Shown here: positions 8,477 through 55,062 of the stretch, piece after piece
Layout of the letters: each line of letters begins with the position of its first letter
How positions within the stretch are numbered: position 1 is the first letter of the stretch
Notes under the pieces: generated by a model
What the model was told of the DNA's origin: nothing
Databases searched by the model: none
The model's input: only the letters and a program-made list of their open reading frames with translations
Translations under genes and position numbers: made by a program
NCBI GenBank assembly: GCA_029564595.1
Contig: JAKQPS010000076.1
Span: 1-56,268, forward strand
Length of the DNA stretch: 56,268 nt
Direction of reading: 5' to 3'
Source: a bacterium
GTDB lineage: Bacteria; UBP15; UBA6099

Positions 8477-8529
8477 CGCGCGAAAAAGACAAATAGCGTC
8501 AACGCAATGTCGCATCTGGCTTGCTGATT

Positions 8530-8566: not shown

Positions 8567-8881
8567 TTGATCCCCGGTCGCGGGCAGAACCGAATCGGAT
8601 TATCCCGAATATTTCGCGAGAACAAATTAGGAAAATCAAATAAGATGCGATCTACGTCGTTGAACCCGAAAACAATAGGAAAGTCTTTTTCCAATCGCAG
8701 AAGGCGAAAACCTTATAGGTTTTTTCGAGTTCAATGCAACGCCGAATGCGAAAGGACCTTGCTTTTTTCCATCAGTTTTCTTTTCATTTTGCCAGACACT
8801 GTAAAGAAGGAGTTTATTGCCCGCGCGCGGCAATGGGCGTATATTAATAGGGTTTTGATTCAGATGTCGGAGTGAAAACAG
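8567..8881. other. Intergenic stretch upstream of the TRAP permeases
   Basis: No convincing gene. It holds one copy of a dispersed repeat (8,601-8,664, matched at 11,518-11,580) and an AT-rich run near 8,780-8,850 that could contain the dctQM promoter; no clear -35/-10 pair is claimed. Confidence 0.5.
8601..8664 (+). repeat. Dispersed intergenic repeat, module A copy 1
   Basis: Runs from TATCCCGAAT through GCGATCTACGTCGTTGAA and matches 11,518-11,580 with scattered substitutions. It is non-coding in all frames in both places. Confidence 0.7.
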
Positions 8882-34782: not shown

Positions 34783-37700
34783 ACTTTCCCAGCATTCGCA
34801 TAGAAGGCGCAATCCTCTCTCCGGACATTCTCGACCGCTTGGAGGACATCCACGGCCAGCGTCCCGTGGACTTCGGCTTCGATTCCTCCACAAAAGTTAA
34901 GGATGAGATCGTTCGCGCATGGGCGGACGCGCAGGATTACTGGCGCATCTTTCAGCGCAAGGTCGATGGCCTCAGAGCCGATTCCCCGGCCACAACTGAA
35001 ACGCGCAACCTCTGGATCGTTCCGCTGCTCGGACTCCTCGGATACCAGACTGAATACCAGCCTCGTGCCGTGGAGGTCAGCGGAAAGACCTATGCCATTT
35101 CCCATCGCGCAACCAATCGCGGACAGACTCCCGTCCACATCATCGGTTGCAAGGAACCCTCCGGACTGGATAAGAAGCCTGAGAAGGCAGTCCTGCGCAT
35201 GTCCGCTCACGCCATGCTTCAGGAGTTCCTCAATCTTCAGGAGGAACTTTACGGCATCGTAACCAACGGTCGCCTCCTGCGCCTGCTGCGCGATAGTTCC
35301 CGCCTTGTCAAACTCTCCTATCTCGAATTCGACCTCGACCGCATCTTCACGGACGGCCTATTCGCCGATTTCGCCGTCATGTTCCGGCTACTGCACGCAA
35401 GTCGCCTGCCGGCCACAATCGAAGGCTCATCAGAAAGCCTCATCGAGCGATACCATCAGGACTCTCTCGATTCCGGCGCGCGCATCCGCGACGGTCTCAG
35501 CCGCGCTGTCGAACAGGCTATCCGCGACTTCGCAAACGGATTCCTCTCGCATCCGGATAACGTATCTCTGCGGGAATCCATAAGCTCCGGGACGCTGCTC
35601 CCAAAAGACTACTACCAGCATTTGCTCCGTCTCATCTATCGCATCCTCTTTCTGCTCGTTATCGAGGAACGCGACCTTGTCTATCCCAAGGATGCCGACA
35701 AAGCAAAGCGGGACATCTATTACGACTGCTACAGTCTCCAGCGTCTCCGCCGCTTGTCGGAGAAACGCTGGCTTGCCGACCGTAGCAAGCACGACCTCTG
35801 GCTTTCATTGCTCACTGCTTTCCGCCTCTTCGAGGCTGGAGGCCCCGGCGCAAAACTCGGCATCGCTCCGCTTGCCGGAGATCTCTTCAGCCCAAACGCC
35901 ATACGCGAACTCGGCCAGTGCATGCTCGGCAACGACGTCCTTCTCGGTTGCCTTCGCGCTCTCAACATGTACGAGAATCTCGATACCCATCAGACCATCC
36001 GCGTTAATTACGCCGCGCTCAATGTCGAGGAGTTCGGCTCCGTATATGAAGGACTGCTGGAATATGACCCTGTTTTTAACATCAATGGAAACCGGATTGA
36101 ATTCGCGTTCGCACAAGGTGGCGAGCGTGCCGCTACTGGCTCACACTACACGCCTGATGACCTCGTGCAGCCGCTTCTCAAACATTCGCTCGATTATCTC
36201 ATCGCGGACAAGCTCAAAGAATCGGACAAAGAGAAAGCTCTTCTCTCGCTTCGCGTTGCGGACATTTCTTGCGGCTCCGGCCACATACTGCTCGCCGCCG
36301 CACGCCGCATTGCAACCGAATTGGCAATCGTTCGCACAAAGGAAGACCAGCCTTCTCCAAAAGCGTTCCGCGAGGCGCAGAGGGATGTCATCCGCGAGTG
36401 CATCTATGGCGTGGACATCAACCCGCTTGCCGTGGAACTTTGCAAGGTTGCGCTATGGCTCGAAGCCCACAATCCCGGAATGCCGCTCAATTTCCTCGAC
36501 CACCACATAAAATGTGGGAACGCCATTGTCGGTTTCACGCGACGCGGTGAGGTCGAAAGAGGTGTGCCGGATGAAGCCTTCAAAACCATGCCAGGCGATG
36601 ATAAGGAGACCATTGCGGAACTTCGCAAGCGCAATAAGATGGAGCGTGCGAAACGCGAAAAGATTGTCGAGACGGAACTTGAACTCTCGCCGGAGATCAG
36701 CAAATACCTCGAAGGCATTCTGACGAGGTGGCGGGACATCTCCAACCTGCCGGAGCGCACACCAGAGGAAATCGAAACAAAAAAACAACGCTACATCGAA
36801 TTCACTCAGAGTCCGGACGCATGGCTGCTCAATCAGATTTCGAGCATCCCAATAGCTCAGTTCTACCTACCGAAAACTCAGGATATCGAATCAAAAATCA
36901 TCACAGACGCCGAGTTCCGACTTTACTGGACAGGAAAACATCATCCGCAGGGTCAGGGAACGGCTGCCGCGCTCGCGCTCGCCCATCAGAAACGATTCTT
37001 TCATTGGTTCCTCGAATTCCCGGAAATTATTCAGCGCGGCGGATTCGACTGCATACTTGGAAATCCACCGTACATGGGCGGAACGAATCTTAGTGGTACT
37101 TATGGCTATCCCTTCTGTGAGTTTGTAAAGTGGGAGTATGCCCCAACCGGTCTCAGTGATCTTGTTACGTATTTCGTACGCCGTATTTACAATCTGTTGC
37201 ACAAAAACGGATTCACTGCATTTATAACAACAAACTCAATTAAGGATGGGGACATTCGTAAGGATGGTCTTGAACAGGTGATTGCCAATGGTGGAGCAAT
37301 CAATTTCGCTGTTAGAGGTATCAAATGGCCGGGGCGTGCAAATCTGGTGGTCTCACTCGTTGCTATTCACAAAGGGAAATGGAATCGCAAATGTTTGTTG
37401 GATGGCAAAGAAGAAAATGTAATTAGCGCACACTTAGAAGGGTACATAGATGCTGGTCCCCCGATCATCTTGGGCAGTAATACCAACTACATGTATGAGG
37501 GGTCCAAGCCACTATCAGACGGATTTATTCTTTCTCATGAGGAAGCTGAAAGAATCGTTCAGTCTGATCCGCGTTATAAGGAAGTGATTTTTCCGATCAT
37601 AAATGGTAATGAATTAAACAATGAACCTTGTCAGACACCAGGAAAAAGCATAATCAACTTCTTCAACTGGACGATGGATAAGGCCCGTGAATACGAATTG

Positions 37701-38561
37701 CCTTTTCAGATCGTAGAACAACGAGTGAAACCTGATAGGGAAAAACAGAATGACAAGATAGGCAAGGAGAAATGGTGGCTGTATCTACGTCCTCGAATCG
37801 AGATGTACTCAAAAATTAGCCATTTATCTCGCTGCTTCACGGCTGCTCGTACAACTAAGCATCTCAATTTCTCTGCTGCCCCTACCAACTATGTTTTCAC
37901 GGAGGCACTTAAAGTCTTCACCACGGACCGATGGGATCTCTACACAGTGGTCCAATCCACCCTGCACGAAGTTTGGGCGCGAAAGTATAGCGGATCACTT
38001 GAAACACGACTTCGTTATTCACCAACAGACTGTTTTGATAATTTCCCATTTCCCGAAGGCCTTTGGAAGACGGCAAATCCCACGCTTGCGGAGACCGGCG
38101 AACGCTATCACGAATTCCGTCGCGCACTCATGAAGCAACTCTGGCTTGGGCTCACGGACATCTACAACCTGTACCACGCTTGCGACCTCTCTTCGGAGAA
38201 AGTCGCGAAGGTCAGTAAGAAGCCGCTGGCCGAGGCTGAGGCGGGTTATATCGGCATCCTCGAACTGCGCCGCCTGCACGTGGAACTGGACACCGCCATC
38301 CGCGACGCCTACGGCTGGAGCGACCTCGATCTCGGCCACGACTTCCACGAACTCGAATTCCTTGCCGAGAACGACCGCGTCCGCTACACCATCAGCCCCG
38401 ACGCCCGCCGCGAAGTCCTCAAACGCCTGCTCGCCCTGAACCACGAACGCGCCGCCCAGCAGTCCGCCGCACCCGCCCCCAAGAAAACAACCCACCGCAA
38501 AAAGGACTCAACCGGCCAACTCTTCGCCGATGAAGGGGAACTCTTCGATAATTCCAGATAG
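34779..38561 (+). CDS. Large adenine-specific DNA methyltransferase (Eco57I/PglX/DrmMI-like)
   Basis: 1,260 residues. Motif I VADISCGSGHILLAAARRI (~492-510), an ATP/AdoMet fold LYGVDINPLAVELCKVALWL-like stretch (here IYGVDINPLAVELCKVALWL), and catalytic motif IV LGNPPYMGG (~756-764), the N-P-P-Y signature of N6-adenine methyltransferases. A target-recognition part probably lies in residues ~950-1,150, where codon use is AT-richer than in the rest of the gene, as in recently exchanged recognition domains. The N-terminal ~150 residues resemble the start of Eco57I-type proteins, but I see no clear PD-(D/E)XK nuclease motif. It would mark host DNA so that the helicases act on unmodified DNA. The 4-base overlap with the upstream gene and 18-base gap to rhuM define the operon. 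Confidence 0.88.
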   Translation: MNFPSIRIEGAILSPDILDRLEDIHGQRPVDFGFDSSTKVKDEIVRAWADAQDYWRIFQRKVDGLRADSPATTETRNLWIVPLLGLLGYQTEYQPRAVEVSGKTYAISHRATNRGQTPVHIIGCKEPSGLDKKPEKAVLRMSAHAMLQEFLNLQEELYGIVTNGRLLRLLRDSSRLVKLSYLEFDLDRIFTDGLFADFAVMFRLLHASRLPATIEGSSESLIERYHQDSLDSGARIRDGLSRAVEQAIRDFANGFLSHPDNVSLRESISSGTLLPKDYYQHLLRLIYRILFLLVIEERDLVYPKDADKAKRDIYYDCYSLQRLRRLSEKRWLADRSKHDLWLSLLTAFRLFEAGGPGAKLGIAPLAGDLFSPNAIRELGQCMLGNDVLLGCLRALNMYENLDTHQTIRVNYAALNVEEFGSVYEGLLEYDPVFNINGNRIEFAFAQGGERAATGSHYTPDDLVQPLLKHSLDYLIADKLKESDKEKALLSLRVADISCGSGHILLAAARRIATELAIVRTKEDQPSPKAFREAQRDVIRECIYGVDINPLAVELCKVALWLEAHNPGMPLNFLDHHIKCGNAIVGFTRRGEVERGVPDEAFKTMPGDDKETIAELRKRNKMERAKREKIVETELELSPEISKYLEGILTRWRDISNLPERTPEEIETKKQRYIEFTQSPDAWLLNQISSIPIAQFYLPKTQDIESKIITDAEFRLYWTGKHHPQGQGTAAALALAHQKRFFHWFLEFPEIIQRGGFDCILGNPPYMGGTNLSGTYGYPFCEFVKWEYAPTGLSDLVTYFVRRIYNLLHKNGFTAFITTNSIKDGDIRKDGLEQVIANGGAINFAVRGIKWPGRANLVVSLVAIHKGKWNRKCLLDGKEENVISAHLEGYIDAGPPIILGSNTNYMYEGSKPLSDGFILSHEEAERIVQSDPRYKEVIFPIINGNELNNEPCQTPGKSIINFFNWTMDKAREYELPFQIVEQRVKPDREKQNDKIGKEKWWLYLRPRIEMYSKISHLSRCFTAARTTKHLNFSAAPTNYVFTEALKVFTTDRWDLYTVVQSTLHEVWARKYSGSLETRLRYSPTDCFDNFPFPEGLWKTANPTLAETGERYHEFRRALMKQLWLGLTDIYNLYHACDLSSEKVAKVSKKPLAEAEAGYIGILELRRLHVELDTAIRDAYGWSDLDLGHDFHELEFLAENDRVRYTISPDARREVLKRLLALNHERAAQQSAAPAPKKTTHRKKDSTGQLFADEGELFDNSR

Positions 38562-38579
38562 TTCAAGAGGAAACAAATT

Positions 38580-39671
38580 ATGGCTAAAAAAGACAAACGT
38601 AATCTACCAATGAAGCCGGAAACAGCGTCTGAGTTCATCTTGTACCAGGCCGATGACGGCCAGACGAAGATTCAGGTCCGGCTCGTGGACGGAACTGTGT
38701 GGCTGCCGCAGCGTTCGATTGCGGAGCTTTTCCAGAAATCCACGCCAACCGTAAATGAGCACATAGCCAACATCTACGAGGAGGGTGAACTGGCCCCCGA
38801 GGCAACTGTTCGGAAATTCCGAATAGTTCAACCGGAAGGAACCCGACGGGTGGAACGGCTGGTGGACTTCTACAACCTCGACATGATTCTCGCGGTTGGC
38901 TACCGCGTCCGGTCCCACCGGGGCACGCAGTTCCGCCAGTGGGCCACACGCACCCTCAGCGAGTTTCTCGTCAAAGGGTTCGTGATGGACGACGAGAGGC
39001 TCAAGCAAGGCCGCAACATCGGCGAAGATTATTTCGATGAGCTTCTGGAGCGAATCAGAGCCATACGGGCATCCGAGCGCCGCTTTTACCAGAAGATCAC
39101 GGACATTTACGCCACGAGCATCGACTACGACCCAAACGTGGAGATTACACAAACATTTTACGCCACGGTCCAGAACAAGCTTCACTGGGCCATCCACGGC
39201 CACACAGCTGCGGAGGTCATCGTGGAGCGCGCCGACGCATCCAAGCCGCACATGGGACTGACTACATGGAAGAATTCTCCGCGCGGCCGCATCCGGAAGG
39301 CGGACGCCACGATTGCCAAAAATTACCTCTCGGAAAAGGAAATCAGCGACCTTGACCGCATCGTGACCATGTATCTGGACTATGCCGAGCTTCAGGCCGA
39401 CAACCGGCGTCCGATGCACATGGCGGACTGGATCAAGAGGCTCGACGCGTTCCTGCAATTCAATGAGAAGAATATCCTGGCGAATCCGGGCAAGGTGTCG
39501 CACGAGCTTGCCCTTGAGCATGCGGAGGCCGAGTTCGAAAAGTTCGACGCCGCGCGCCGCAGTCTGGAGGCCACACAGCCCGTCAGCGACTTCGACCACG
39601 TCGTGGAGCAGGTCAAGCAACTGGGCAAGGGCTCCGCAAAACCACCGAACAATAGAAAAAAGCGGAAGTGA
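38580..39671 (+). CDS. rhuM: RhuM family protein
   Basis: 363 residues with the RhuM signature: an N-terminal winged helix region (DGTVWLPQRSIAELFQKS, ~39-56), TVNEHIANIYEEGEL, then VERLVDFYNLDMILAVGYRV, RGTQFRQWATRTLSEFLVKG and the C-terminal DYAELQADNRRPMHMADWI-like block. The molecular function of RhuM is unknown despite its virulence name; it is found again and again beside restriction-modification and related loci. The gene starts 18 bases after the methyltransferase stop, so it belongs to the same transcript. A role as regulator or accessory to the helicase/methyltransferase system is inferred. Confidence 0.88.
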   Translation: MAKKDKRNLPMKPETASEFILYQADDGQTKIQVRLVDGTVWLPQRSIAELFQKSTPTVNEHIANIYEEGELAPEATVRKFRIVQPEGTRRVERLVDFYNLDMILAVGYRVRSHRGTQFRQWATRTLSEFLVKGFVMDDERLKQGRNIGEDYFDELLERIRAIRASERRFYQKITDIYATSIDYDPNVEITQTFYATVQNKLHWAIHGHTAAEVIVERADASKPHMGLTTWKNSPRGRIRKADATIAKNYLSEKEISDLDRIVTMYLDYAELQADNRRPMHMADWIKRLDAFLQFNEKNILANPGKVSHELALEHAEAEFEKFDAARRSLEATQPVSDFDHVVEQVKQLGKGSAKPPNNRKKRK

Positions 39672-41400: not shown

Positions 41401-41832
41401 TTAAAAATGGGAAGAAGCACAGCGAATCGATGTCATTAGAAATCTACGCCAGCAACCGGATGGAACTGGTATGAAATCGGGGCGCTGTCTTTCTTTCGGG
41501 TACACATAAACCCAGGCAGGTGCTTTCTTCCCACCATTCAGGATCGAAACGCTTTTTTCAATCCTGATGTAGTGGCTTCGGCTATCGCCGGGGCGATAAC
41601 CTTCAAGCCGGTCGAGGTGTTCGAGCGTTTTTGCGATATCTGGAAACGTCATGACCTCTCCGAGGACCTGCCCGTCGAGCGCATCAAACATCGCGGGGAA
41701 TCCATAGGGAAGATGATAAAGCCGCCCGGTAGTGACAGCGGGCTCAATAGTGAGCGCATCGCGGCAGTACCTTTCGTGGTTCCAGAATCCGGACATCAGA
41801 CTTCCGTAGACAAATAATCTTGATATCCCCAT
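41401..41832 (-). CDS. Gamma-glutamylcyclotransferase-like (GGCT/AIG2 family) protein
   Basis: 143 residues from the ATG at 41,832; the frame is open further upstream only as a shadow of the preceding gene. The family N-terminus is present (LFVYGSLMSGFWNHE), with the YGSL substrate-binding loop at residues ~8-11, and the catalytic-acid region lies around LEHLDRLEGYRPGD (~86-99, with Asp/Glu). C-terminal AWVYVYPKE is typical. GGCT-fold enzymes cyclise or cleave gamma-glutamyl amide bonds, releasing 5-oxoproline or related products. The start overlaps the end of the glutamine amidotransferase gene by 37 bases. With that gene and the amidoligase it forms a set known from comparative genomics of amidoligase neighbourhoods. 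Confidence 0.8.
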   Translation of the reverse strand: MGISRLFVYGSLMSGFWNHERYCRDALTIEPAVTTGRLYHLPYGFPAMFDALDGQVLGEVMTFPDIAKTLEHLDRLEGYRPGDSRSHYIRIEKSVSILNGGKKAPAWVYVYPKERQRPDFIPVPSGCWRRFLMTSIRCASSHF

Positions 41833-42593
41833 GATGAATAGCTCCTCATCCGTCCTTTGAAATAAAAATCGTGTTGCCGGAAGTCCATCAGGTCGGCAAC
41901 ATTGAATGCCGACAGCGTGTACGCAGCGATATCCAGCGGAATGACATCCTGTCTTCCGCCGTTGACCCGCTCGAGCGGCCATTCCTCGGACGAGTAGAAC
42001 ACGGCCCGAAATCCTTTGTGATACCACAGGGTTAGCGGCTTGTTGCCTTTGATGACCAGAATCGTATCGGGCGCCGATGTGCGCGTGAAAACGGCGGACA
42101 TGCCGCCACGGACGTCGCTGACGCAAGCCGTGAAGTTCTCGATGCTGTCTTTTTTATCCGCGAGCCGGAAGATGAACTCGCTGTCAACTTCGCCAACACG
42201 CGGCAGCCGGTATTTCTTGAAAAGCCGGTCCGCGTTCAGGATCGTGCCCGCGGCGGTGCCTATTACGGCTCCCGCCCTAATCGGATGGTTGTTCAGGCTG
42301 TTCGCCTCCGTGCCGCGCGTTTTCCATCGAGTGTGCCCAAGGATACAGGTTGTCGCATTATCGAATCGTCCGATGATTTCTGAATATTTCTCTTCCATGA
42401 CCAGCTTCGCCGCAGGGCCCGGACGCTTGAAAAGCGAGTACGTGCCGTCGCGCCGTATCATGGCGAGACCGGCGGCGTCTTTCCCGCGCGCCTGATTGAG
42501 CAAAAGCAGCTCAGTAAACATGCGCCCGATTTCTTCGAGTTCCGTTTTACGGCGGCGTTTGTTGCCAATTAAAACCCCGGTTAATCCGCACAT
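41796..42593 (-). CDS. Class II glutamine amidotransferase
   Basis: 265 residues with the N-terminal nucleophile Cys2 after Met1 (MCGLTGVLIG), as in Ntn-type amidotransferases where Met is removed. Further motifs: RGKDAAGLAMI (~35-45), ILGHTRWKTRGTEANSLNNHP (split as GHTRWKTRG and NSLNNHP), and EVDSEFIFRLAD (~134-145). It lacks a synthetase domain, so it is a stand-alone glutaminase supplying ammonia to a partner, most likely the amidoligase encoded further up the same operon. Ribosome site GGAG precedes the ATG, 15 bases after the stop of the remnant gene. Confidence 0.85.
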   Translation of the reverse strand: MCGLTGVLIGNKRRRKTELEEIGRMFTELLLLNQARGKDAAGLAMIRRDGTYSLFKRPGPAAKLVMEEKYSEIIGRFDNATTCILGHTRWKTRGTEANSLNNHPIRAGAVIGTAAGTILNADRLFKKYRLPRVGEVDSEFIFRLADKKDSIENFTACVSDVRGGMSAVFTRTSAPDTILVIKGNKPLTLWYHKGFRAVFYSSEEWPLERVNGGRQDVIPLDIAAYTLSAFNVADLMDFRQHDFYFKGRMRSYSSWGYQDYLSTEV

Positions 42594-42608
42594 ATTATTT
42601 ACACTCCA

Positions 42609-42739
42609 TCAAAGGTTGTGTTCTCTTTTCTTTGGTTCCATCCAGACCTGGGCGCTATCGAACTGGCGCATTAAATCCGCCGCCTGGCGCATGCTTTTTC
42701 CTTCGTAGTTTCTGACTTCACTGATACCGCCCGCGGCCT
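42609..42739 (-). pseudogene. 3-prime remnant of a gene cut by the RIT element
   Basis: An in-frame 3-prime end (last residues ISEVRNYEGKSMRQAADLM, then RQFDSAQVW and MEPKKREHNL) ends in TGA at 42,609-42,611, 15 bases before the amidotransferase start. Toward higher coordinates the frame stays open through the 31-bp terminal repeat and up to a stop at about 42,812 inside the RIT element, but no start or ribosome site is found. The fragment has normal coding character, so the gene was probably split when the RIT element inserted. No homologous 5-prime part is obvious right of the element, and the function is unknown. Confidence 0.6.
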
Positions 42740-42770
42740 GATTTATGTAAAGCCGCAAATTATGTTGAGT
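42740..42770 (+). repeat. Left 31-bp terminal inverted repeat of the RIT element
   Basis: Perfect reverse complement of 46,323-46,353. Identity stops at both ends of the 31 bp, which fixes the borders. Confidence 0.88.
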
Positions 42771-42836
42771 CGGGCGAAAAAAACTAGGATTCTCAGGGGC
42801 TTCTGTTTTTTTGACTCAACATAATCACAACACCCC

Positions 42837-43847
42837 TCATAGAGAAGAGAGCCAATCCAGGATGTCTTTGTTGTTTTGCCATGACGGTGCCTGCATGCTT
42901 GGTAATAACTTCGGGGCTTTGTCCAGCGCCTGCCGTTTCATTTCCATGTCAGCGCGCGCGTAGATATCTGTCGTTCGTATGTCCGTGTGTCCCAAAATCT
43001 TCTGAATTACAGATATCGGGTTTCCTGATTGATGAAGATGCATCGCCTTTGTGTGCCGCAAGGTATGAGGGCTGAGACGCTTTTTCAGAGAGCGGCTGTC
43101 AAAACCGGCCCTTCCCGCATGCTTTTTCAGGATGTAATTGATTCCTGATCGTGATAGTCTCGCGCCGTAACGATTGGAGAACAAAGGAATCGTTGCGTGC
43201 TCAGGCCAGATGAATCCATGCTCTTGAAGATATTCCTTCAGCAGATTTACCGTTGGTTCCATCAAAGGGACCGAACGGATTTTTCTGCCTTTCCCCGACA
43301 GACGCACTTGTGCCGGCGCTTCCAATCTGATATCTCCCACCGATAAGTTGATGATTTCCTGCACTCTTGCGCCGGTATCGTAAAGCACACTGAGCAAGAC
43401 GGTGTCACGGCGCCCCGTTCTCGTTGTAAGGTCTGGCTGCGCAAGAATCGCCTTCAATTCTTCTTGGGATAGATACTCTACCTCGGAATGACCGAAACGT
43501 TGCAAAGGGATAGCGAGGATTCGCTGACACTGGAAAAGGAGTTGGGGTTCTTCTGTCTGAACATATCGAAAAAATGAGTGCAAAGCGGCCAACCTGTGAT
43601 TTCGCGTGCGGGTGCTGCATTTGCGATCACTTTCCAAATGTTCGAGGAATCCTAAAACCAATGATGTGTCCATGTGTTTCATATCCAGTTTTTCAGGGGG
43701 CAATTCTCGAACATCACGGCAATATCTGAGAAAGAGAGCGAATGTGTCACGATATGCCATGATGGTGTTGGGACTGACGTTGCGCTGACTAGGAAGATAA
43801 TCACTCAAAAACTCGGAAAGGTGAAACGCAAAGTTCATTCTCTTCAT
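42837..43847 (-). CDS. ritC: RIT tyrosine recombinase, third gene
   Basis: 336 residues. N-terminal SAM-like core-binding domain (LSDYLPSQRNVSPNTIMAYR), then the catalytic domain with Arg in YDTGARVQEI, Lys in LSGKGRKIRS, HTLRH box (PHTLRHTKAM), His in ILGHTDIRTT and the tyrosine nucleophile in TTDIYARAD. All five catalytic positions are present, so it should be active. It starts in the ATGA overlap with the second recombinase gene. In RIT elements three such proteins, from distinct subfamilies, act together to move the element. The gene stops 12 bases from the inner repeat copy at 42,815-42,825. Confidence 0.9.
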   Translation of the reverse strand: MKRMNFAFHLSEFLSDYLPSQRNVSPNTIMAYRDTFALFLRYCRDVRELPPEKLDMKHMDTSLVLGFLEHLESDRKCSTRTRNHRLAALHSFFRYVQTEEPQLLFQCQRILAIPLQRFGHSEVEYLSQEELKAILAQPDLTTRTGRRDTVLLSVLYDTGARVQEIINLSVGDIRLEAPAQVRLSGKGRKIRSVPLMEPTVNLLKEYLQEHGFIWPEHATIPLFSNRYGARLSRSGINYILKKHAGRAGFDSRSLKKRLSPHTLRHTKAMHLHQSGNPISVIQKILGHTDIRTTDIYARADMEMKRQALDKAPKLLPSMQAPSWQNNKDILDWLSSL

Positions 43848-44875
43848 GGGTCTTGCCTCCTTGGGATTATGTGGCCGAAGGCTTTTTCTGTGCGTTTTGT
43901 CAACTCCGGAAATAAGTCGGCGGTGAAATGCAGATAATACTGCGTTCCCTCTAATGTTTCGTGCCCCATGTAATCTGCCAGTACAGATAATTTTTTGTTA
44001 AGGTCGGCGCCTTCTCTGTACCACTGAATTAATCGGTGCACGGCATACGTGTGACGAAGGTCGTGGGCTCGCGGGCCTTTCCCGCGGCCGCCATGAGGAA
44101 TTCCGGCTTTTCTCAACACTTCACGATAGGCATCGTAAACGGTTTTTCTCCCGTATTGGCCGCCATCCGGTGCGGGGAAGAAAAACGCATTGGGGCTTTT
44201 GACCGTCAAAAACATTGCGTACTTTTGCAAACGGCGCACAATAGACCAGGCCAGCGGAACCAATCGATCTTTTCCACCTTTTCCATCGCGTATAGTCAAC
44301 AAACCTCTTTCCAAGTCGACGTCTTTTAAACGCATACATCTTGCTTCTCCGCTGCGAAGGCCGCAGAAATACAGGAGCCGAAAATACTCGGGCATTATCA
44401 GATGTCTCATAGGCGAATGGATTGTGTACTGTAAACCGTCGACCGCGCGTAGCAACGACCTGATTTCATCGTATGTGAAAATTCTGGGGATGAAGTCTCT
44501 TTTGAACCTCCCATTCTGTTGAATGAACGAAGTGTCTACGGCATCTCCTTGACACTGAAGGAAAAGACATATCTGCCGCACAGCGGATTTTCGCCCATCC
44601 TGGTTCCTTGGCCGTTCGTTGTCTTTTCTTTCCATCCACTTTTTCAGCAGTTCTCTCGGAAACTCATCCGAATGCCATCCTTCCTTGTAAAGAAAATTGT
44701 CAAGACACCGCAGACGCGCAGAGTCGGGACTGTAGCGATAACCACAGGCTCTTTTGAATCGGATGAATCTGTCCAACACCGGGCCAAAACCACTGTGGAA
44801 GGTGATAATTTCCTTTTTCTCACGCATACGGCACCTCCTCGGGATCGAGAGCGGCGCTCCGCAATTCATCCACAT
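43844..44875 (-). CDS. ritB: RIT tyrosine recombinase, second gene
   Basis: 343 residues. N-terminal domain around RFIRFKRACGYRYSPDSARL, catalytic Arg in FCGLRSGEARC, Lys in DGKGGKDRLVPL, HDLRHTYAV, His in YMGHETLEGT and Tyr in TQYYLHF. It is a complete integrase-fold enzyme. It overlaps the first recombinase gene by 56 bases and the third by 4, which indicates obligate coexpression. Its sequence is clearly different from the other two, as expected for the three RIT subfamilies rather than tandem duplication. Confidence 0.9.
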   Translation of the reverse strand: MWMNCGAPLSIPRRCRMREKKEIITFHSGFGPVLDRFIRFKRACGYRYSPDSARLRCLDNFLYKEGWHSDEFPRELLKKWMERKDNERPRNQDGRKSAVRQICLFLQCQGDAVDTSFIQQNGRFKRDFIPRIFTYDEIRSLLRAVDGLQYTIHSPMRHLIMPEYFRLLYFCGLRSGEARCMRLKDVDLERGLLTIRDGKGGKDRLVPLAWSIVRRLQKYAMFLTVKSPNAFFFPAPDGGQYGRKTVYDAYREVLRKAGIPHGGRGKGPRAHDLRHTYAVHRLIQWYREGADLNKKLSVLADYMGHETLEGTQYYLHFTADLFPELTKRTEKAFGHIIPRRQDP

Positions 44876-46067
44876 TCACTTTTGCGTATATCCTGGTGGA
44901 ATCCAGCGAGGAGTGCCCTAAAATGTCCGAGATGGTTTCAAAGGGGACATCGCTTTCCATTAACTGGCAAGCCAGAGTATGCCGCAGAGAATGCAGGCCG
45001 CCATGTCCTTTCGGCGGAAGAGGTATCCCGGCACGCCTTCTGTAAGTAGTGATAATGTTGTGAAAAGCGACGGCTTTGACAAAAGGCTCATACGGGGCAA
45101 GAGCACGGAGAAAAACTTCGCGGTGTGCCGTAACGGGCCGCCCGTTGCGCAGATAATCAATCAAGGCTTCCCCGATCTCTTCGGTCAATGGTAGCGACAA
45201 AATCCTCCCTGTCTTGGTTTGGGGACATACGATTTTTGATTCTTTCCAGTTTATGTGGTCAAGTCTCAGAGCGCGAATATCACAACCTCGCATTCCCAAT
45301 CTGCATGCGAACAATAAAATCGCATAATCTCGTTTGCCCATGGGGGAGCTTCTATCAACTGCGAGCAAAAGCCGATTAATATCTTCTGGGTTCCATACCA
45401 CCGGAAGACGTGAATCTTTGGGTATATAAATATGCGGCACGTATGTCGAATAATCTCTATCCACGATTCCCTGAATCCACAGATGGCGCAAAAATCGTCC
45501 GCAGATGCAGGCAAGGGTTTTTCTCGTCCGGGGAGAATAATCCGGCCGCGCGAACAAGAATTCGGAAATCAAGTCAGGGCGAAATTCTTTCCACTTTTCG
45601 ATGTTTTTGCTGTAAAGATAATGAAGAAACAATGTCAGGTACGCACGCTCATTGTACATCGAAACGTGACGTAGTGTTTTGCGCCTTATCCGAAGATATT
45701 CTTTCGCGGGCTCAGAAAGGGGGCCAGACAACGAACGCGCATATGATCCGCTTGGTCTCTGTCGCCAGTAACCCCAAGCATCGAACTCCTCTAAATACCG
45801 CATGGCAGTTCGTACTTTCTGTTGCGAAGTTTTCAAGGAGGAAATCTTCACGTCGCACGGGATGCCCATCTTTGTAATGTATTGTTCCGCAAGTTCTTTC
45901 GAATAATGCCGAACTCCTTTCTCTTCGGAATATTTTTGAAATCTCCTCATTGTCCTTGCGTATGCCAGTACGCACCTCCTTGTATACCCGGTTTCCTCCA
46001 TGTGACAGACCACATCTTTCACCAATCTTTCTAATGAATTCTTGCTGTCTTCTTTTCTCTCCTTCAT
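44820..46067 (-). CDS. ritA: RIT tyrosine recombinase, first gene
   Basis: 415 residues, the longest of the trio. Core-binding domain around LTLFLHYLYSKNIEKW, catalytic Arg in CRLGMRGCDIRAL, Lys in PQTKTGRILSLPL, HSLRHTLACQ, His in ILGHSSLDSTR and Tyr in RIYAKVNVDEL. It is the promoter-proximal gene; the ~70 bases to 46,136 and the right end repeats probably carry the operator/promoter, which would couple transposition-site binding to expression. All catalytic residues are intact. Confidence 0.9.
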   Translation of the reverse strand: MKERKEDSKNSLERLVKDVVCHMEETGYTRRCVLAYARTMRRFQKYSEEKGVRHYSKELAEQYITKMGIPCDVKISSLKTSQQKVRTAMRYLEEFDAWGYWRQRPSGSYARSLSGPLSEPAKEYLRIRRKTLRHVSMYNERAYLTLFLHYLYSKNIEKWKEFRPDLISEFLFARPDYSPRTRKTLACICGRFLRHLWIQGIVDRDYSTYVPHIYIPKDSRLPVVWNPEDINRLLLAVDRSSPMGKRDYAILLFACRLGMRGCDIRALRLDHINWKESKIVCPQTKTGRILSLPLTEEIGEALIDYLRNGRPVTAHREVFLRALAPYEPFVKAVAFHNIITTYRRRAGIPLPPKGHGGLHSLRHTLACQLMESDVPFETISDILGHSSLDSTRIYAKVNVDELRSAALDPEEVPYA

Positions 46068-46322
46068 TTCTGAAGCCTCCTATTGATTTATTTCGGCGAC
46101 ACTTTTGCTCGCCGTTGAGGCTTCATTGTCAGATAATTATGTTGAGACGATCAACTTCTGTGGTGCCCCATCCCGCAAGTGATTTTCAATTATCTTCCAT
46201 ACCCTCCTTTTTTAAATCGCTGAAAAACGTTTCTATTATTGACAATTCTGTGATGTGGCTTAAAAACCCCACCGCTGTCGGTCTAAACCGTTTGTCTTGT
46301 TGACCGCTTCGAGATGATGGCA
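46068..46322. promoter_or_regulatory. RIT right-end control region
   Basis: Non-coding. It contains the inner ATTATGTTGAG copy (46,136-46,146) 177 bp from the outer one (46,324-46,334). The left end has the same pair spaced 45 bp apart. The region must hold the recombinase promoter; exact boxes are not resolved. Confidence 0.5.
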
Positions 46323-46353
46323 ACTCAACATAATTTGCGGCTTTACATAAATC
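46323..46353 (-). repeat. Right 31-bp terminal inverted repeat of the RIT element
   Basis: Perfect reverse complement of 42,740-42,770. Confidence 0.88.
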
Positions 46354-46356
46354 GCG

Positions 46357-46376
46357 TTATGTAGAGCTCTACATAA
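46357..46376. repeat. 20-bp perfect palindrome overlapping a stop codon
   Basis: Half-site TTATGTAGAG followed directly by its reverse complement, with no loop. It starts 3 bases outside the RIT terminal repeat and spans the stop codon of the 106-residue gene. Its TTATGTA word echoes TTTATGTAA in the terminal repeat, so it could be a recombinase target or a protein-binding dyad. Confidence 0.6.
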
Positions 46377-46689
46377 TTCTGTATAAAAATTGGAGAGCCT
46401 GCACAGCCTTCCAGAATTTGTCTTTCGGCGCATCATTCATGTACAGAAGGTTGAATTTCTTTTCGCATGTTCTGTCAGGCCCGACGATTCCTTCATAGAT
46501 AACGGCATCAATATTTCCATTCGCCAGTTTTTTTGACATGATACGGCGCATGCGAGAAGTGCCAGGAAGCGAGAAATCCGCAATCACATAAAGCGATTCA
46601 TCAGGCTCATTAATTGTGATAATCGGCTTTAGATTCCGTTGCAGATTCTGAATTCTGCGCTGTGCGTTTCTCTTTTTCTTATTCGACAT
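46369..46689 (-). CDS. Unknown small basic protein of the amidoligase operon
   Basis: 106 residues, with a strongly basic N-terminus (MSNKKKRNAQRRIQNLQRNL) and an alpha/beta remainder (SLYVIADFSLPGTSRMRR, IDAVIYEGIVG). No family recognised. GGAG precedes the ATG. It overlaps the upstream gene by 11 bases, so it is in the same operon. The basic tail suggests nucleic-acid or polyanion contact, an inference only. Confidence 0.65.
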   Translation of the reverse strand: MSNKKKRNAQRRIQNLQRNLKPIITINEPDESLYVIADFSLPGTSRMRRIMSKKLANGNIDAVIYEGIVGPDRTCEKKFNLLYMNDAPKDKFWKAVQALQFLYRIM

Positions 46690-46900
46690 TCCGTTCTCCT
46701 TCTGTTTTGATGTCCGGCCCGGCGATTCCGGCTTTCTCCTTCATGTATGAAATCCAGCCTTGCCGGTTCATGCCCATGGCTTTGTGGATGTCCGCTTTTG
46801 TAAGAACACCGAGACGCTGGAACTGTCCCATCACAACGTAGCAATTCTCTTCTGTGATGAAACGCTCGATTTTTTCAATGGGGTCATCGTCCATACTCAT
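46679..46900 (-). CDS. Unknown small protein of the amidoligase operon
   Basis: 73 residues. The helical segment LGVLTKADIHKAMGMNRQGW suggests a helix-turn-helix-like domain. An internal ATG at 46,894, 7 bases after GGGAGGT, is a better-placed start than the first ATG, so the protein may be 71 residues. It overlaps the upstream gene by 4 bases. Function unknown. Confidence 0.6.
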   Translation of the reverse strand: MSMDDDPIEKIERFITEENCYVVMGQFQRLGVLTKADIHKAMGMNRQGWISYMKEKAGIAGPDIKTEGERNVE

Positions 46901-47139
46901 ACCTCCCGAGCGAGACCGCGCTCGATCAGCTCGGAAACAAGCGACCGTGTGAGTTCTTCGTCTGTGTTTCCCTTGACCGTAAGCTCGATGTTCTCCATCA
47001 TCTTCGCGTTGCGAAGCACCATGTCCACGTATTCGCGGATGGTCCGCACGTCCGAGAACATCGTGGAGCCTTTCATCTGGGTGACGATTTTCATCGGCGA
47101 ACCGCTGAATTTCTCGCCGCCCTTCAGTTCAATACGCAT
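46897..47139 (-). CDS. Unknown small protein of the amidoligase operon
   Basis: 80 residues from the ATG at 47,139, chosen because AAGGAGG lies 8 bases upstream; an earlier in-frame start (47,190) would run into the preceding gene. Sequence begins MRIELKGGEKFSGSPMKIV and ends in a helical segment (DEELTRSLVSELIERGLARE). It looks like a small alpha/beta fold; no family recognised. Confidence 0.6.
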   Translation of the reverse strand: MRIELKGGEKFSGSPMKIVTQMKGSTMFSDVRTIREYVDMVLRNAKMMENIELTVKGNTDEELTRSLVSELIERGLAREV

Positions 47140-47161
47140 TGCAACCGCCTCCTTTAGCAAT

Positions 47162-47386
47162 TTACGCCAACCCAATCGGATGTGACGCACTATGTACGCT
47201 CAGGTCGATCATTCCTTCGAGGAGATCGCCCGATTCAAAGCATCGCGGACAGACCGGTATATCGACGATCTGTCCGCCATGCTCGAGCCGGATAAATAAT
47301 CCGCCGCGCTCGAACGGCTCGCGGCAATGGCCGCATGTGAATCTGTTGTTGTAAGGGTTCTTTCCGAACTTCACTCTGATTTTCAT
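47162..47386 (-). CDS. Small Cys4 (zinc-knuckle-like) protein of the amidoligase operon
   Basis: 74 residues with CGHC (residues ~18-21) and CPRC (~46-49), giving a probable zinc-binding treble-clef or ribbon. It lies directly between the amidoligase gene and the 80-residue gene, with small gaps (13 and 22 bases). Such small metal-binding proteins often accompany modification enzymes as substrate or adaptor; which applies here is unknown. Confidence 0.65.
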   Translation of the reverse strand: MKIRVKFGKNPYNNRFTCGHCREPFERGGLFIRLEHGGQIVDIPVCPRCFESGDLLEGMIDLSVHSASHPIGLA

Positions 47387-47399
47387 CTGATGCCCTCCA

Positions 47400-48299
47400 T
47401 CACGCCGCCTGCTCCGCTTGCGGTCGTCCGTTTTTGAATGCGCTGTCTCCCTCGAGGTTTGCGAGCAGGTGCTGCCGCGCCGTTTTGAACTCGTCGCCGA
47501 TGAGCCCGAGGCCGAGCAGGAACACCCGGAAATCGTATTTGCTGTTTATTGGATTCAGGTCGCGTTTGCGGCTGCTTGCCGCGTTGCTGTTGATGGCTTT
47601 CGCGCCGAGCGCGAGACAGAACTGAATGTATGATTTTATTTTTCCGGCGTGGAGCGTCCCATTGAAATAACGGAACTCGACCGTCCCGCGATACCACACG
47701 TTGTGAAGGTTCAGTCCTCGGTAGCGGGTCGAATCGTAGTGCGTCGGGCTTTGATTCTGGTAGCCGTACCAGAGTTGATTGAGTTCGTCTTTTGACTTCG
47801 GTTTCCGCTTTTCAATTTTCTCGATGAACTCGCCGTTTACCTTTTTCGCGTAAGAGGCGAGCCGTCGTTCGTTTACGTCGAGGGCTTTTACAATGAGGTC
47901 TTCCTGTTTGTTGACGATTTTTGTGAGGTTGACGAGGGCTTTCGCGGTGAAGGCGTCCGCGTCAAGATGAACATGGACACCGCATTGGCTGCTTATGTGC
48001 GCTCCGGCGTTTCGCACCGCCCGGACCACTTCCTGAAGCTGGTCCATGTCCCCGTAAACAAGTATCGGGCTTACGATTTCAGCCCGATACTTTGCATCCA
48101 CGTTTGTGAGCGACCCGTCGGCGACCACTTTCCATTTGCGGCCGCGGTCGTCGGTGACCTCCCATGGGTCGTGGCATTGCGGCATTCCGGTGTGCAGCAC
48201 CGTGCCGCCGACCACCGATTGGATGGCCCGCGCAACCTTCTCGCGGGTCTGTCTTACCGTTTCGATCTCGATCCCGAATCTGATGTCTTTCAAATCCAT
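47400..48299 (-). CDS. Amidoligase (Amidoligase_2, glutamine-synthetase fold)
   Basis: 299 residues. N-terminal [10 protein letters not shown] (~7-16) is the acidic metal-binding strand of this family; [14 protein letters not shown] (~67-80) and [12 protein letters not shown] (~106-117) supply further ATP/metal residues; [20 protein letters not shown], split as RGLNLHN and GTVEFRYF (~195-215), matches the family C-terminal block. Amidoligases use ATP to join a carboxylate to an amine, forming peptide-like or isopeptide bonds. With the class II amidotransferase (ammonia source) and the GGCT-like enzyme in the same operon, it points to amide modification of a protein or metabolite, probably during phage or element replication. 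It is the first gene of the operon. Confidence 0.82.
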
Positions 48300-48626: not shown

Positions 48627-48935
48627 CTACACAGCGACACTACAATTTAGATGGTTGGAAGAAGAAAGAATAATGTTAGAACAGAATGTCATGGACGTGG
48701 AATTCTGAACCACGAGTTCCTTGAGCGAGCAGAGAAAACGCTCGGTCAGTTCCTTTCTTTCCCTGCACACCTCGTCGAGTGCGGTGCTCTGTTTCGCCAG
48801 AACGGTATCTTTGTCCGAGAGCCGTTTCTCGAATGAGCTGAGAAGCTGCGGGATCAGTCCTTTGAAAATGCCGATCAATGTCACCACCAGCGTGAGAAGG
48901 ATGCCGCCGAGCTGCACGAGAAGATTATTCTCCAT
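48627..48935 (-). CDS. Holin-like small membrane protein
   Basis: 102 residues with one N-terminal hydrophobic segment (GGILLTLVVTLIGIFKGLI, ~10-28), followed by a charged helical, coiled-coil-like stretch. The site GGAGGTGAATAATCA precedes the ATG. Size, topology and position beside an amidase/tail module suggest a holin or spanin-like lysis protein, but sequence alone does not prove pore formation. Confidence 0.6.
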   Translation of the reverse strand: MENNLLVQLGGILLTLVVTLIGIFKGLIPQLLSSFEKRLSDKDTVLAKQSTALDEVCRERKELTERFLCSLKELVVQNSTSMTFCSNIILSSSNHLNCSVAV

Positions 48936-48938
48936 TGA

Positions 48939-49421
48939 TTATTCACCTCCTTCGGAAACGGGAACCGTGTAGTCTTCGCCCCACGCGGCGGGCGGCTCCA
49001 GGACGACAATAGATTCCAGGATGCGATAGCTTTGCAAAAGCCTCGTCGGAACTCTTGTGAGGAATGCGAGAACCTCCTCGGCGGTCAGTTCCGTAATGAT
49101 CAAGTCGTGACACACGATGGTGTCGTTCCACACGGGTCCGCCGCGGTCGAGGATCATCGCGTGCGCGTAGATCGGCTTTTCGCCCGAGATCATCCTCCGC
49201 TGGAGTCCGTCCGGTTTTACGACTTTCCTCTGCGCGTTCGGGGCAAGAAGCGGGAATTGGAAACCCGGCTCCCGGAACGGGCAGAACAACCCGCCGGTCT
49301 CGCCGAATGTTTTCTCCTGACCATCCTCCGGGTCAGTCACGGCGACTTTCGGTATGCCCACCTCGTAGTCGTCTGTCGCGGCGCTGTACACCGCGCCGAA
49401 ATCTCCCTCAATCGTTCTCAT
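48939..49421 (-). CDS. Unknown phage-module protein
   Basis: 160 residues, no membrane segment or signal peptide. It is rich in Pro, Gly and acidic residues (VTDPEDGQEKTFGETGGLF) and has a mixed alpha/beta look. AAGGAG precedes the ATG. It lies 3 bases upstream of the holin-like gene and 21 bases downstream of the tail-spike gene, so it belongs to the late phage operon. A tail-fibre assembly protein is possible; not recognised. Confidence 0.65.
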   Translation of the reverse strand: MRTIEGDFGAVYSAATDDYEVGIPKVAVTDPEDGQEKTFGETGGLFCPFREPGFQFPLLAPNAQRKVVKPDGLQRRMISGEKPIYAHAMILDRGGPVWNDTIVCHDLIITELTAEEVLAFLTRVPTRLLQSYRILESIVVLEPPAAWGEDYTVPVSEGGE

Positions 49422-49442
49422 GTATAAAAACTCCTTTCCGGC

Positions 49443-52400
49443 TCAGATCACCGAGCCGTTGATGATGTTGTGCGCTATCTCGTTCGTGTTGTCCGGCGTG
49501 CCGGAGAACGGATAAGCCTTGGGCCATCCGGGTTGAACAGCTTTTGAGTTCGTGAAGATGTTTCCGATCACCACGTTCTTCTTTGCGGCCGCAGTGGTGA
49601 CCATCATGCCGAGAACGCGATTGCCGTTGACTACGCAGGACGAGCCAACGAACGTGCAGGACAGATTCACCCCGCCTGTGACATTGATGTCCCCGCACAC
49701 GAAGTTGCCGGTGACCACCGAGAGCGACGACACGCCGTCGATATGCGCGAGATTCGTGTACGCCCACGCTGTGTTGGACGAGCCGCCGTAAGAGGAATTG
49801 AGCGCGTCGGACCAGTAGATAGTGTTACCGGACACACTGGTTATCATACGCGTCTCGATGTCTTTGCTGCTCTGGAACGTTACGCAGTAGCCGGGCTGAA
49901 AGTTGTCCACGAGCCCCGCCGTGTAGAACGAGCATGACGTGCCCGTGGCGTAGAATTTCTGGCTTCCGTCGTAGGAGTAGATGTTGAACTCGTCGATGCA
50001 GGCGTTTCCCGCGATCTGCGCCCGGGGAACGATGGCGCTGATGGCTACTGACTTTTGAGTGCGGATGACATTGCCGGTCGCAGATCCCCAGAAGCCGAGC
50101 GTCAGGGTGCCTCTCACGGAATTGCCGGACGCGCGGGAGCCTTTGCCACCGACGCTCAAACCGCCGTCCTCGATGACATTGTTCGCCGCGACGCTATAGT
50201 CCCCGGCAAGCGTCATTCCGTAGCCAACAAAATTCCCGACCGCCAGCGTCTTCTCTGTTGTGCCGCTGATGACCTGCAGGTTGCCCGCGACGTAGTTGCC
50301 GTTGGCCGTGGCCGCGTTTTTCAGTTTCACGTTGCCGTGACACAGGTTGTTGTTGAAAATGACCCGGCCTTCATAGGCTGTCGCATCAATCGAACCGATG
50401 TTGTTGTTGCAGCAGATGAAGGCGACTGTGTTTGAGCCATCCACGAATATTTGTCCGGCGAAAGTGTTGCCGAGAAACAGGATGTCGCCGCCGGAGAAGG
50501 AGTACGGGCTGGTCTGGAGTTTCACGGTCGGTTTATCCACGCCCGTAAAAAGCGTGGCGGACGTGTTACCGATGATGTATGCGTTGAGAAGCCCGATATT
50601 CGTGCCGGGGTCTCGCGCCGCGTTGATGTCGAGATATCCGTTGCCGCCGCCGTCGAAGTAGTTGAAGCAGATGAACGTTTCGTAGGTGTTGTCACCAGCA
50701 GTGATACCGGATGACGGAGGTTGGCTGTAGAAGCTCTGGCCCGGTGAGCCGTCATATCCGTGTTGAAATCCTCCGTTGACGGTGCAAATGTAGAATCCAT
50801 ACATGCTGTCGTACACCATGTCCTGAATCGTTTTGCTTTCGCTGTTCGTGCCGTCGCTGAAGCTAACCGACATGCCCACGGCAATCAGACCCGCGTTTAC
50901 GACAGCGGAAGTTGCGCGGAACTGGTTGCTTCCCTGATTGATGGATGAGTAGATGACATCATCGAGTTCGTACCGGAACCCGCCGCTGCCCTGGAACCGG
51001 TTGTATTCGATGACCGTGTTGTTGTTCAGTTCGCAGTAAATTCCATGCCGCAGCCGCCGAAACACACAGTTGCGGATTTTGCCGTTCATGATTTCCTGTC
51101 CCCAAACGCCCCACTCGCCACCGATTCCTATTGTGGTCGCGGTGAAATCACTTCCGAAGTCCGTGGTCGCCGCTTCGATAAAGCAACCGTCCACATCAAG
51201 CCGGGAACCGTAATACCGGAATGGACTGATGCCGATGCTGTTTTTTGGAACCTTGATCCAGAGATTTAGAAACTTATTTCCTGGAGACGCCTGAATCATG
51301 CAGTAATCGGTGAACCCGGCTGCTGGCACCAGCGTCGGCATGACATCCGGCATGCCTTCCTCCATCGAGCCGAGCCCGTAGAGGATGGTGTTGTGCTTCA
51401 TCGTGACATGCGAACTGAGGGTATAAATGCCCGGTTTTATCCAGACAACTCCTCCGTCGTTCCCGAGCGCGTTGATGGCTGTTTGCAAATCCGAATAAGT
51501 GCCCGGCGCGCCGGAAGTGTCCATGACAACCCACGAGGCATTCGTGCCGCCAGCGCCCACGAGGTTTTTGACCCAGCCCATGGTCGCGGCATCCTGCGGG
51601 TTGTCCGGGTTGAGCAGGTTGACGATTTTGCGGTTGCCCGCGCTGTTGCCCTTTGTGAGAACCGTCGAAAGATCTGGAACGGAAGAAGACATCTTGAACC
51701 ATCGGCCCGAGCCCGACGTAGGCGTTATCACGCCATCTCCATCGTCCGTTCCGGTTCCCGTATCGTCAAAGCGATAGAGAGAGCCCTTGTCCTCCACGAG
51801 CCGCACCTGTTTGTCAGAGCGGTTCACAGCCGCGATGTCGCGGAGATTCTGGATGGACTGAACCGGCGACGCGAATTTTGCCGCCACACCAGATATGTCG
51901 CCGACCGTGGCAAATGGATTGGCTGCGTTCGCGCCAGCCGCGCCAGTTGCGGCATTGTAGAGATCAAGCGCGAGGTGATAACGCTCGGTCGCGGAACCGC
52001 CCTGCACGGAGAGAAGATCGTTGTGATTTTTTCTGTGAATTGCGGCATCAGAAAGATGCTCGCCGAGGGATGCATTGCCGTTCACGTCCGGCGATACGGG
52101 GAGCCCGCCATTGAACGACGCAGTGTGCAGACCCGAATGCGCCGAAGATACCTGTGACTGCGTGCATTGCCCTAGCAGGTTTGCGATATTGACCTGATCC
52201 GAACCGCCCGCGCCGTGCGTCGCCGCGTGAGGCGTCACAACTCCGATGCCGCCCTGAACCACGTCGATGCGGGAATCGATCTCGTCGAGAACCTCATCGA
52301 GCGTGTCCCCTGTGTAGTTCGGATTCTGGACATCTATGTCCTCATCTTTATGTCGGTGGCCGCTGCCGGGGCGGCCACCGACTCTGTTCTGGTATCCAGT

Positions 52401-52961: not shown

Positions 52962-53485
52962 TTCTTCACCTCCGCGAGAGACATCTTCTCTGCGACAGCT
53001 TTCCGCACGGCGGTCATGCTCACGTTTTTGCCAGGACACGTTTTGCTGTAGCCTTCTTTTCCGATCTTCCGTTGCATCTCGCCGTGTCCGAAAATCGCCG
53101 TGCGGGGATCGAGTCCGTACTTCCGGCACCAGAACGCGAGAAGGTCCGTGAGCTTTTCCATCTGGCGCTCAGTCGGAGCGTCCTTATCGAAATCGCCGAT
53201 GAGACACACATGGAGAGAATCTGCGTTTGCGTATTTGCAGCCGTTCGAGGGTTTGTCCTCCGGCCAGATGCGGTCGACGCGTCCGTCCGCGGCCGCGACT
53301 GGTTTTCGTTTGCTCCATGCGTTGTAGTTGGGATATCCATTGCAGATGACCGCGTGATAGCCGGGGGCGCTCCATCCGTTGCCTTTCGGTTTGGGATTTG
53401 TGTGCCACCCCATGATGACATCGCCGTCGCCCCAGGCGCTCACGGAATGATGGACGATGAGATTCCTGATTTTTCTGTTTGCCAT
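52958..53485 (-). CDS. N-acetylmuramoyl-L-alanine amidase (endolysin)
   Basis: 175 residues of the T7-lysozyme/PGRP amidase fold: LIVHHSVSAW (His12, His13), GYHAVICNG (His44), LIGDFD (~95-100), FGHGEMQ (His134) and KTCPGKN (Cys150). His13, His134 and Cys150 fit the zinc ligands. The protein cuts the bond between N-acetylmuramate and L-alanine in peptidoglycan. There is no signal peptide, so it needs the holin for access to the wall. It overlaps the spike gene by ATGA, unusual for a lysis gene, placing it in the middle of the tail operon. Confidence 0.88.
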   Translation of the reverse strand: MANRKIRNLIVHHSVSAWGDGDVIMGWHTNPKPKGNGWSAPGYHAVICNGYPNYNAWSKRKPVAAADGRVDRIWPEDKPSNGCKYANADSLHVCLIGDFDKDAPTERQMEKLTDLLAFWCRKYGLDPRTAIFGHGEMQRKIGKEGYSKTCPGKNVSMTAVRKAVAEKMSLAEVKK

Positions 53486-53503
53486 GAGTTGTTCTTCCTT
53501 TCG

Positions 53504-55053: not shown

Positions 55054-55062
55054 GGATGCTCC

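Follow-up and report, generated by a model that had tools for sequence, protein, structure and literature searches.

The window, that is, the whole 56,268-nucleotide stretch of DNA analysed here (JAKQPS010000076.1), belongs to the draft genome G000 (4.4 Mb, 203 contigs) as its contig C149. On its minus strand, between positions 41,401 and 48,299, lies a cassette whose genes run, in intact relatives, in the order amidoligase, a small Cys4 protein, a small protein that we call X, a protein of 73 amino acids (73-aa protein), a 146-aa protein, a class II glutamine amidotransferase (GATase) and a GGCT-like protein. All seven genes are carried by two related loci, L014 and L028, and unclassified bacterial metagenome-assembled genomes such as ADurb.Bin236 are among the operon's relatives. 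Phage operons of amidoligase, GATase and GGCT genes have reportedly been on record since 2009. An earlier note on this DNA had described a minus-strand operon with the chemistry of amide bonds as the common theme of its enzymes. The theme is borne out by the confirmed families and the enzymes all lie on the minus strand, but the operon is not a single intact one, since a recombinase in trio (RIT) element at 42,740-46,381 splits it.

The gene at 47,400-48,299 (minus strand) encodes a 299-aa Amidoligase_2 protein, as had been proposed from its GIEIE and GVHVHLD motifs, which are both intact together with TVEFR. The protein matched PF12224 with an E-value (E) of 2.3e-65, scoring 221 bits where the cut-off is 22 and covering positions 2-244 of 245, and phrog_2443 with E 1.3e-88, PHROGs agreeing with Pfam for the cassette enzymes. 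The residues E11, E13, D61, E74, R93, H109, H111, R146, R192, Y193, E208 and R210 are invariant in 27 amidoligases. A PDB sequence search with the amidoligase gave no match at E<=1. Its structural model (predicted local distance difference test, pLDDT, 93.4) matched the PDB folds of glutamine synthetase and YbdK best, PafA and Dop ranking lower. The amidoligase fold on which the earlier note depended is thus supported by the model, which predicts a fold of the glutamine synthetase/glutamylcysteine synthetase (GS/GCS) type with a conserved acidic, histidine and arginine set. The window amidoligase shares its fold with this superfamily (YbdK, glutamine synthetase, PafA/Dop), although identity is only 8-14%. 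Possible partial amidoligases were also seen elsewhere: second amidoligase-like proteins in gut phages (L067, 6109-6873; L068, 6560-7288) seem to keep the C-terminal part, and in Streptococcus Javan phages only the C-terminal part (from about residue 207) was matched.

At 41,796-42,593 (minus strand) lies a stand-alone class II GATase domain of 265 aa. It had been recognised by its N-terminus MCGLTG, and the match to GATase_6 (PF13522, E 1.6e-13) agrees. The cysteine directly follows the initiator methionine, as in an N-terminal nucleophile, and besides Met-Cys the arginine of HTR and the VDSE motif are retained. The oxyanion motif HNG, by contrast, reads AAG in the window, in the sister copy of the same genome (L013 on contig C173, 11077-11871) and in L015 on contig C43 of genome G003 (7547-8341). 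Among 73 other viral GATase homologues, 70 have HNG, 2 have VNG and 1 is truncated. The window protein thus still belongs to the fold family, but its activity is doubtful, as the Asn-Gly of the oxyanion hole is not kept. The role of ammonia source that had been assigned to the protein is doubtful too: ligases of the GS/GCS fold normally use the amine directly, and the HN of the oxyanion motif is absent here. The GGCT-like (GGACT/AIG2) protein of 143 aa is encoded at 41,401-41,832 (minus strand), overlapping the GATase stop; its real start is 41,832, not 42,126. That it belongs to the GGCT/AIG2 group was confirmed by PF06094 (E 4e-25, 89 bits versus 22.8), by YGSL and LDRLEGY with its conserved Glu, and by phrog_2520 (E 2.8e-17). 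A search of an anti-phage defence database gave no match for the amidoligase or the GATase.

The RIT element (minus strand) was delimited from its inverted repeats, its three recombinases, an empty site in L015 and copies of its end elsewhere. Its terminal inverted repeats of 31 nt (left arm 42,740-42,770, plus strand; right arm 46,323-46,353, minus strand) are 100% complementary, and an outer extension with the palindrome TATGTAGAGCTCTACATA follows at 46,354-46,381. Between the repeats lie three adjacent genes on the same (minus) strand for tyrosine recombinases of 415 aa (44,820-46,067; PF00589, E 1.1e-25), 343 aa (43,844-44,875; E 6e-23) and 336 aa (42,837-43,847; E 3.2e-35), the arrangement by which RIT elements are recognised. 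The archetype has recombinases of 315-410 aa and 34-bp repeats (PMC10214605); the window element likewise has three tyrosine recombinases between terminal inverted repeats, and it differs by its repeat length and by the extra 28-nt palindromic extension at one end.

The open reading frame (ORF) of 106 aa at 46,369-46,689 is a truncated gene running into the RIT end. Its 5' part spans 46,382-46,689 and its 3' part 42,609-42,739 (both minus strand), the latter matching the C-terminal end of the L015 gene at 91% identity; the gene is intact, at 146-147 aa, in L014, L015, L017 and L028. L015 has the same operon, the same chromosomal flank and a clean empty site (...CAATTTTTATATCAGGCCGCG...) at the position where the window reads ...CAATTTTTATAC-[RIT]-AGGCCGCG... 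From this empty site and the inverted repeats it follows that the operon was split by a mobile element, an insertion unrelated to the enzyme theme. The window copy probably does not work as one operon, because the element breaks the 146-aa gene and separates the GATase and GGCT genes from those upstream. The RIT end also occurs, with 1-2 mismatches, at three further sites of G000 (C76:62792, C11:112 and C35:112), all near contig ends (C76 has 62,928 bases), which suggests that the element is multi-copy in this genome and breaks the assembly. In L017 the amidoligase gene itself contains another recombinase trio (6479-9934), and the trio of L027 (112-3486) abuts an amidoligase remnant; judged from these loci, RIT-type elements hit the cassette repeatedly.

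Upstream of the insertion the small genes are present on the minus strand: the Cys4 protein foreseen in the operon (74 aa, 47,162-47,386), X (80 aa, 46,897-47,139) and the 73-aa protein (46,679-46,900). X starts at the ATG at 47,139; a longer ORF of 97 aa (46,897-47,190) begins earlier. The ratio of nonsynonymous to synonymous substitution rates (dN/dS) was computed for six cassette genes between copies and relatives, leaving out the split 146-aa gene. It was 0.07-0.32 for every pair except the nearly identical GATase and GGCT genes of the window and L015, and therefore the six genes, small ones included, are under purifying selection. Between relatives, the three small genes (Cys4, X, 73-aa) gave values of 0.10-0.32, with 0.11-0.32 for Cys4 and 0.10-0.20 for X. 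Of the small proteins that had been left unrecognised, X and the 73-aa protein, like Cys4, thus look like real genes by dN/dS, and the 106-aa ORF is not a gene of its own. In a scan for promoters and terminators of the cassette, terminators were at the shuffled level and promoters little above it.

The Cys4 protein had weak zinc-ribbon-like Pfam matches at most. A diverged second copy of the 73-aa protein precedes the amidoligase in the sister prophage; the idea that the 73-aa protein is a hidden DUF5049 protein or a hidden X was dropped, as no profile match was found. Members of the Cys4, 73-aa and 146-aa families came to light in no loci but L013-L019, L028 and L029, which lie in genomes of the host family and one viral contig.

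Viral contigs were scanned from two independent anchors, the counts taking in near-duplicate contigs. The scan from the amidoligase gave 39 loci, 23 of them with at least 2.8 kb downstream; the scan from the GATase gave 72 loci, 57 with both flanks. An amidoligase gene lies within 5 kb in 65 of the 72 GATase loci. Where both flanks were available, 51 of the 57 have an amidoligase gene on the same strand, 47 have it upstream and 32 have GGCT; downstream of the amidoligase, 22 of the 23 loci have GGCT, 14 have X and 12 have GATase. Among diverse phages the enzymes move together as one set, and the co-occurrence in other genomes that the earlier note required is found in many viral contigs.

The same note had proposed the Cys4 or basic small proteins as substrate, and had asked whether the small genes travel with the enzymes. 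X does. Surveyed from the enzyme anchors alone, it is present in 20 of the 39 amidoligase loci, with or without GATase, and it accompanies the amidoligase also where no GATase was found (L042, L046, L053 and L057). The Cys4, 73-aa and 146-aa genes were seen to do so in the phages of this host family only, and as substrate their proteins are not supported; it is X and, elsewhere, DUF5049 (PF16468) that recur. DUF5049 occupies the same place as X in 17 loci, six of the 23 scanned small proteins matched it (best E 1.8e-13), and the two are fused in L032 and L054; none of the small proteins of the window matched DUF5049. Groups of X built separately are homologous, the window group scoring 97.2-99.3% against three others in hhalign, and single members being linked by BLAST; the X of L057, used as a single query on the viral contigs, found itself only. 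Within the genome of the window, X is confined to the two cassettes. No Pfam family matched X. Its model (pLDDT 91) is a compact folded domain with no PDB match at E<=0.001, and it resembles two viral proteins (template-modelling score 0.7-0.8, E 1e-3). A supposed homologue of X (E 0.009) in Vibrio phage Aphrodite1 was rejected: the annotated proteins of that phage gave no profile match, and none of the enzymes stood next to it.

The element that carries the cassette had been called prophage-like, and its genes agree. At 48,627-56,241 (minus strand) the window holds a prophage end, cut by the contig end, with a holin-position protein, a 160-aa protein, a 1228-aa tail protein, an endolysin/amidase (52,958-53,485), a phrog_5417 protein and a baseplate-like protein. 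The sister copy on C173 has genes for terminase, a Mu-F-like head protein, a D12-type adenine methylase, tail sheath, tape measure and baseplate proteins. A tailocin or capsid-less injection system was considered and rejected, given the terminase and the Mu-F-like head protein upstream in the sister copy. Sequence common to the prophage copies ends directly after the GGCT gene, which places the cassette at, or close to, an end of the element. Two copies were found in G000 and at least four in G003, and by its gene content the carrier is a predicted temperate contractile-tailed phage family with several copies per genome. A search with Mu-transpos_C, for Mu-like transposition behind the multiple copies, gave no match in the sample and none in the controls either. 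Between the lysis genes and the amidoligase gene, L013 has genes for a large serine recombinase and RepB/ParB proteins (4321-8177); ORFs of similar size stand at that position in L015 (10931-15304), and no such genes are there in the window, L014 or L017. The holin-position protein (48,627-48,935, 102 aa; about 130 aa in relatives) matches its relatives over the first 83 residues, a possible frameshift.

Two further observations concern the rest of the window. A putative defence island on the plus strand (26,741-39,671) adjoins the prophage end, a mixed DISARM/Dpd/Druantia-like set: a 1725-aa DEAD helicase with an MZB domain (DruE-like), a 1260-aa DrmMI-like methylase, a RhuM-family protein (PDC-S05) and a 955-aa SNF2 protein matching DpdE (E 9e-176) and DrmD. 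At 17-8,476, also on the plus strand, a giant adhesin-like protein of 2819 aa with YadA-head repeats is encoded.

Our best explanation of the whole, held tentatively and with a little less than even confidence, is a phage accessory operon for gamma-glutamyl ligation, with X as partner, a cell-wall target and exclusion of other phages. The cassette would be an accessory operon, placed at the genome end, of a family of temperate phages with contractile tails whose hosts form an uncultured bacterial lineage. Using ATP, the amidoligase would activate a carboxyl group, most likely the one at the gamma position of a glutamate, and join it to an amine to form an isopeptide-type gamma-glutamyl amide. 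GGCT would trim or reverse this bond, possibly with the GATase, acting as a gamma-glutamyl or amide hydrolase and not as an ammonia pump. X would serve the ligase as a dedicated partner (adaptor or carrier) and would not itself bear the modified residue. As target, a cell-wall peptide of the host or its precursor is the most likely; its alteration, whether in the lysogen or in the course of infection, would keep competing phages out. We favour the cell wall and exclusion because of the published proposal for phage cassettes (PMC5498523, repeated in PMC10580990, PMC11253131 and PMC11318856) and the position of the cassette near the holin-position, endolysin and tail genes, neither of which is proof. 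Several points weigh against this explanation. The cell-wall target is an old inference, and the cited papers show no substrate. The GATase is not obligatory, since 11 of the 23 amidoligase loci have none detected, and the near-duplicate viral contigs mean that the locus counts are not independent events. The AAG form of the GATase has a dN/dS of 0.24 between the window and C173 copies, which is purifying selection, and the protein may work in an unforeseen way.

The place of X bears on a different kind of target. Its gene stands between those of the ligase and the GATase and accompanies the ligase gene also where no GATase was found, and the fold search listed PafA, which is a Pup ligase, and Dop, a depupylase, among its matches, as would be expected if X, or its fusion with DUF5049, were a substrate or a ubiquitin- or Pup-like carrier attached to phage or host proteins, from which GATase and GGCT remove it. 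However, a single Tyr is the sole invariant residue of X; no Lys, Glu, Asp or Cys is kept throughout, nor is a C-terminal tail, and this argues against X as bearer of the modification, the adaptor role not being thereby proven. A conserved C-terminal CADK/CADR tag on the X and DUF5049 proteins was considered as a modification site and rejected: adjacent cassette genes overlap, and these ends come from ATGTGCGGACAAG, the start of the GATase gene, read in another frame. Moreover, the compact fold of X is unlike the disordered Pup, and no X turned up in roughly half of the loci with an amidoligase. Such protein modification is, on these grounds, rather unlikely. It is also unlikely, though worth stating separately, that X is an undescribed folded family for phage amidoligases that serves as carrier or adaptor in a ligation/deligation system unlike the podovirus cassette described below, with the GATase erasing the bond.

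A metabolic role, in which the cassette makes or recycles gamma-glutamyl compounds (glutathione-like, or for nitrogen storage) for the infected host, has been proposed for Phage-ZRK32, which has these three enzymes together with a glutathione synthase and, on nitrate or ammonium, promoted the growth of a Pseudomonas (PMC10945688). The growth effect was, however, not tied to the cassette genes. Here, no glutathione synthase or other pathway enzyme stands beside the cassette in the genes scanned, and dedicated small partners such as X and DUF5049 would be unexpected for a metabolic pathway, so that we hold this role improbable. Nucleic-acid hypermodification, the addition of amino-acid or amine groups to phage DNA or another nucleic acid against restriction, seems very improbable. 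Some phage base modifications use amide chemistry, the phage family has the D12-type adenine methylase and the defence island lies next to the prophage end, but no base-hypermodification genes were seen in the subset of genes scanned, and the cassette stands with tail and lysis genes here. Decay, compatible with any of these readings, would make the window cassette a functionless prophage remnant, with the intact sister copies alone mattering. The RIT insertion and the AAG GATase of the window copy fit it, and the trios within the amidoligase gene of L017 and beside the remnant of L027 indicate that inactivation recurs; against it, the amidoligase, Cys4, X and 73-aa genes upstream of the insertion are intact, and the GATase and GGCT frames are open and conserved in pairwise comparisons. 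We regard decay as possible, while leaning against it.

For work on the accessory operon that we favour, the lead of value from this analysis is X. The survey narrows the ligase partners worth testing to X and DUF5049, rather than the Cys4 or basic proteins. The window copy, with its RIT element and altered GATase, is poor to work with, and intact operons are available in the near relatives L014 and L028.

The precedent that the earlier note had claimed for such neighbourhoods in phages is real (PMC5498523, PMC3890496, PMC10945688, PMC10580990, PMC11253131); amidoligase, GATase and GGCT operons turn up in phages of many environments, their function not being demonstrated in the cited papers. 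Among annotated phages the closest amidoligases, about 40-45% identical, are those of Ca. Heliusvirales gut phages and clostridial prophages. These gut phages (Ca. Heliusvirales, Terrisporobacter phage TPDSL_ph1, C. clostridioforme prophages; PMC11318856, PMC11253131), several of them temperate, likewise have GGCT after the amidoligase. They differ in that no GATase is annotated alongside, in that other small proteins stand in X's place (two DUF4314-like by eye), often with a second amidoligase-like protein, and in that the amidoligase genes lie near terminase. Phage-ZRK32 and an OM43 phage have amidoligase and GATase on one phage, ZRK32 also GGCT (PMC10945688, PMC10580990); ZRK32 adds its glutathione synthase, and X and DUF5049 are not mentioned for either in the portions of these reports considered here. 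The 'peptidoglycan modification cassette' of the podoviruses phiEco32, LUZ24, tf, PaP3, PA11, RIO-1, PSA-HP1 and UFV-P2 (PMC5498523, PMC3890496) clusters Amidoligase_2 and GATase_6, in several with GGCT, and the genes of the window are clustered in the same way. The podovirus cassette, however, lies among early genes and adds a second ligase (COOH-NH2_lig in UFV-P2) and an ATP-grasp R2K enzyme; a Pfam scan of phage FBPa8, which has a cassette of this kind, showed a class I/C26-type hydrolase and an amidoligase matching PF12224 weakly, and the podovirus GATase is about 26-28% identical to that of the window. A search for COOH-NH2_lig (PF14395) in the host, the sister genome and 24 viral records gave no match, the positive control giving none either; R2K (PF14243) had no match in the host or sister genome and one sub-threshold match in one viral record, R2K_2 not being searched. 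The cassette is a variant of the published phage cassette, present in the window as a damaged copy.

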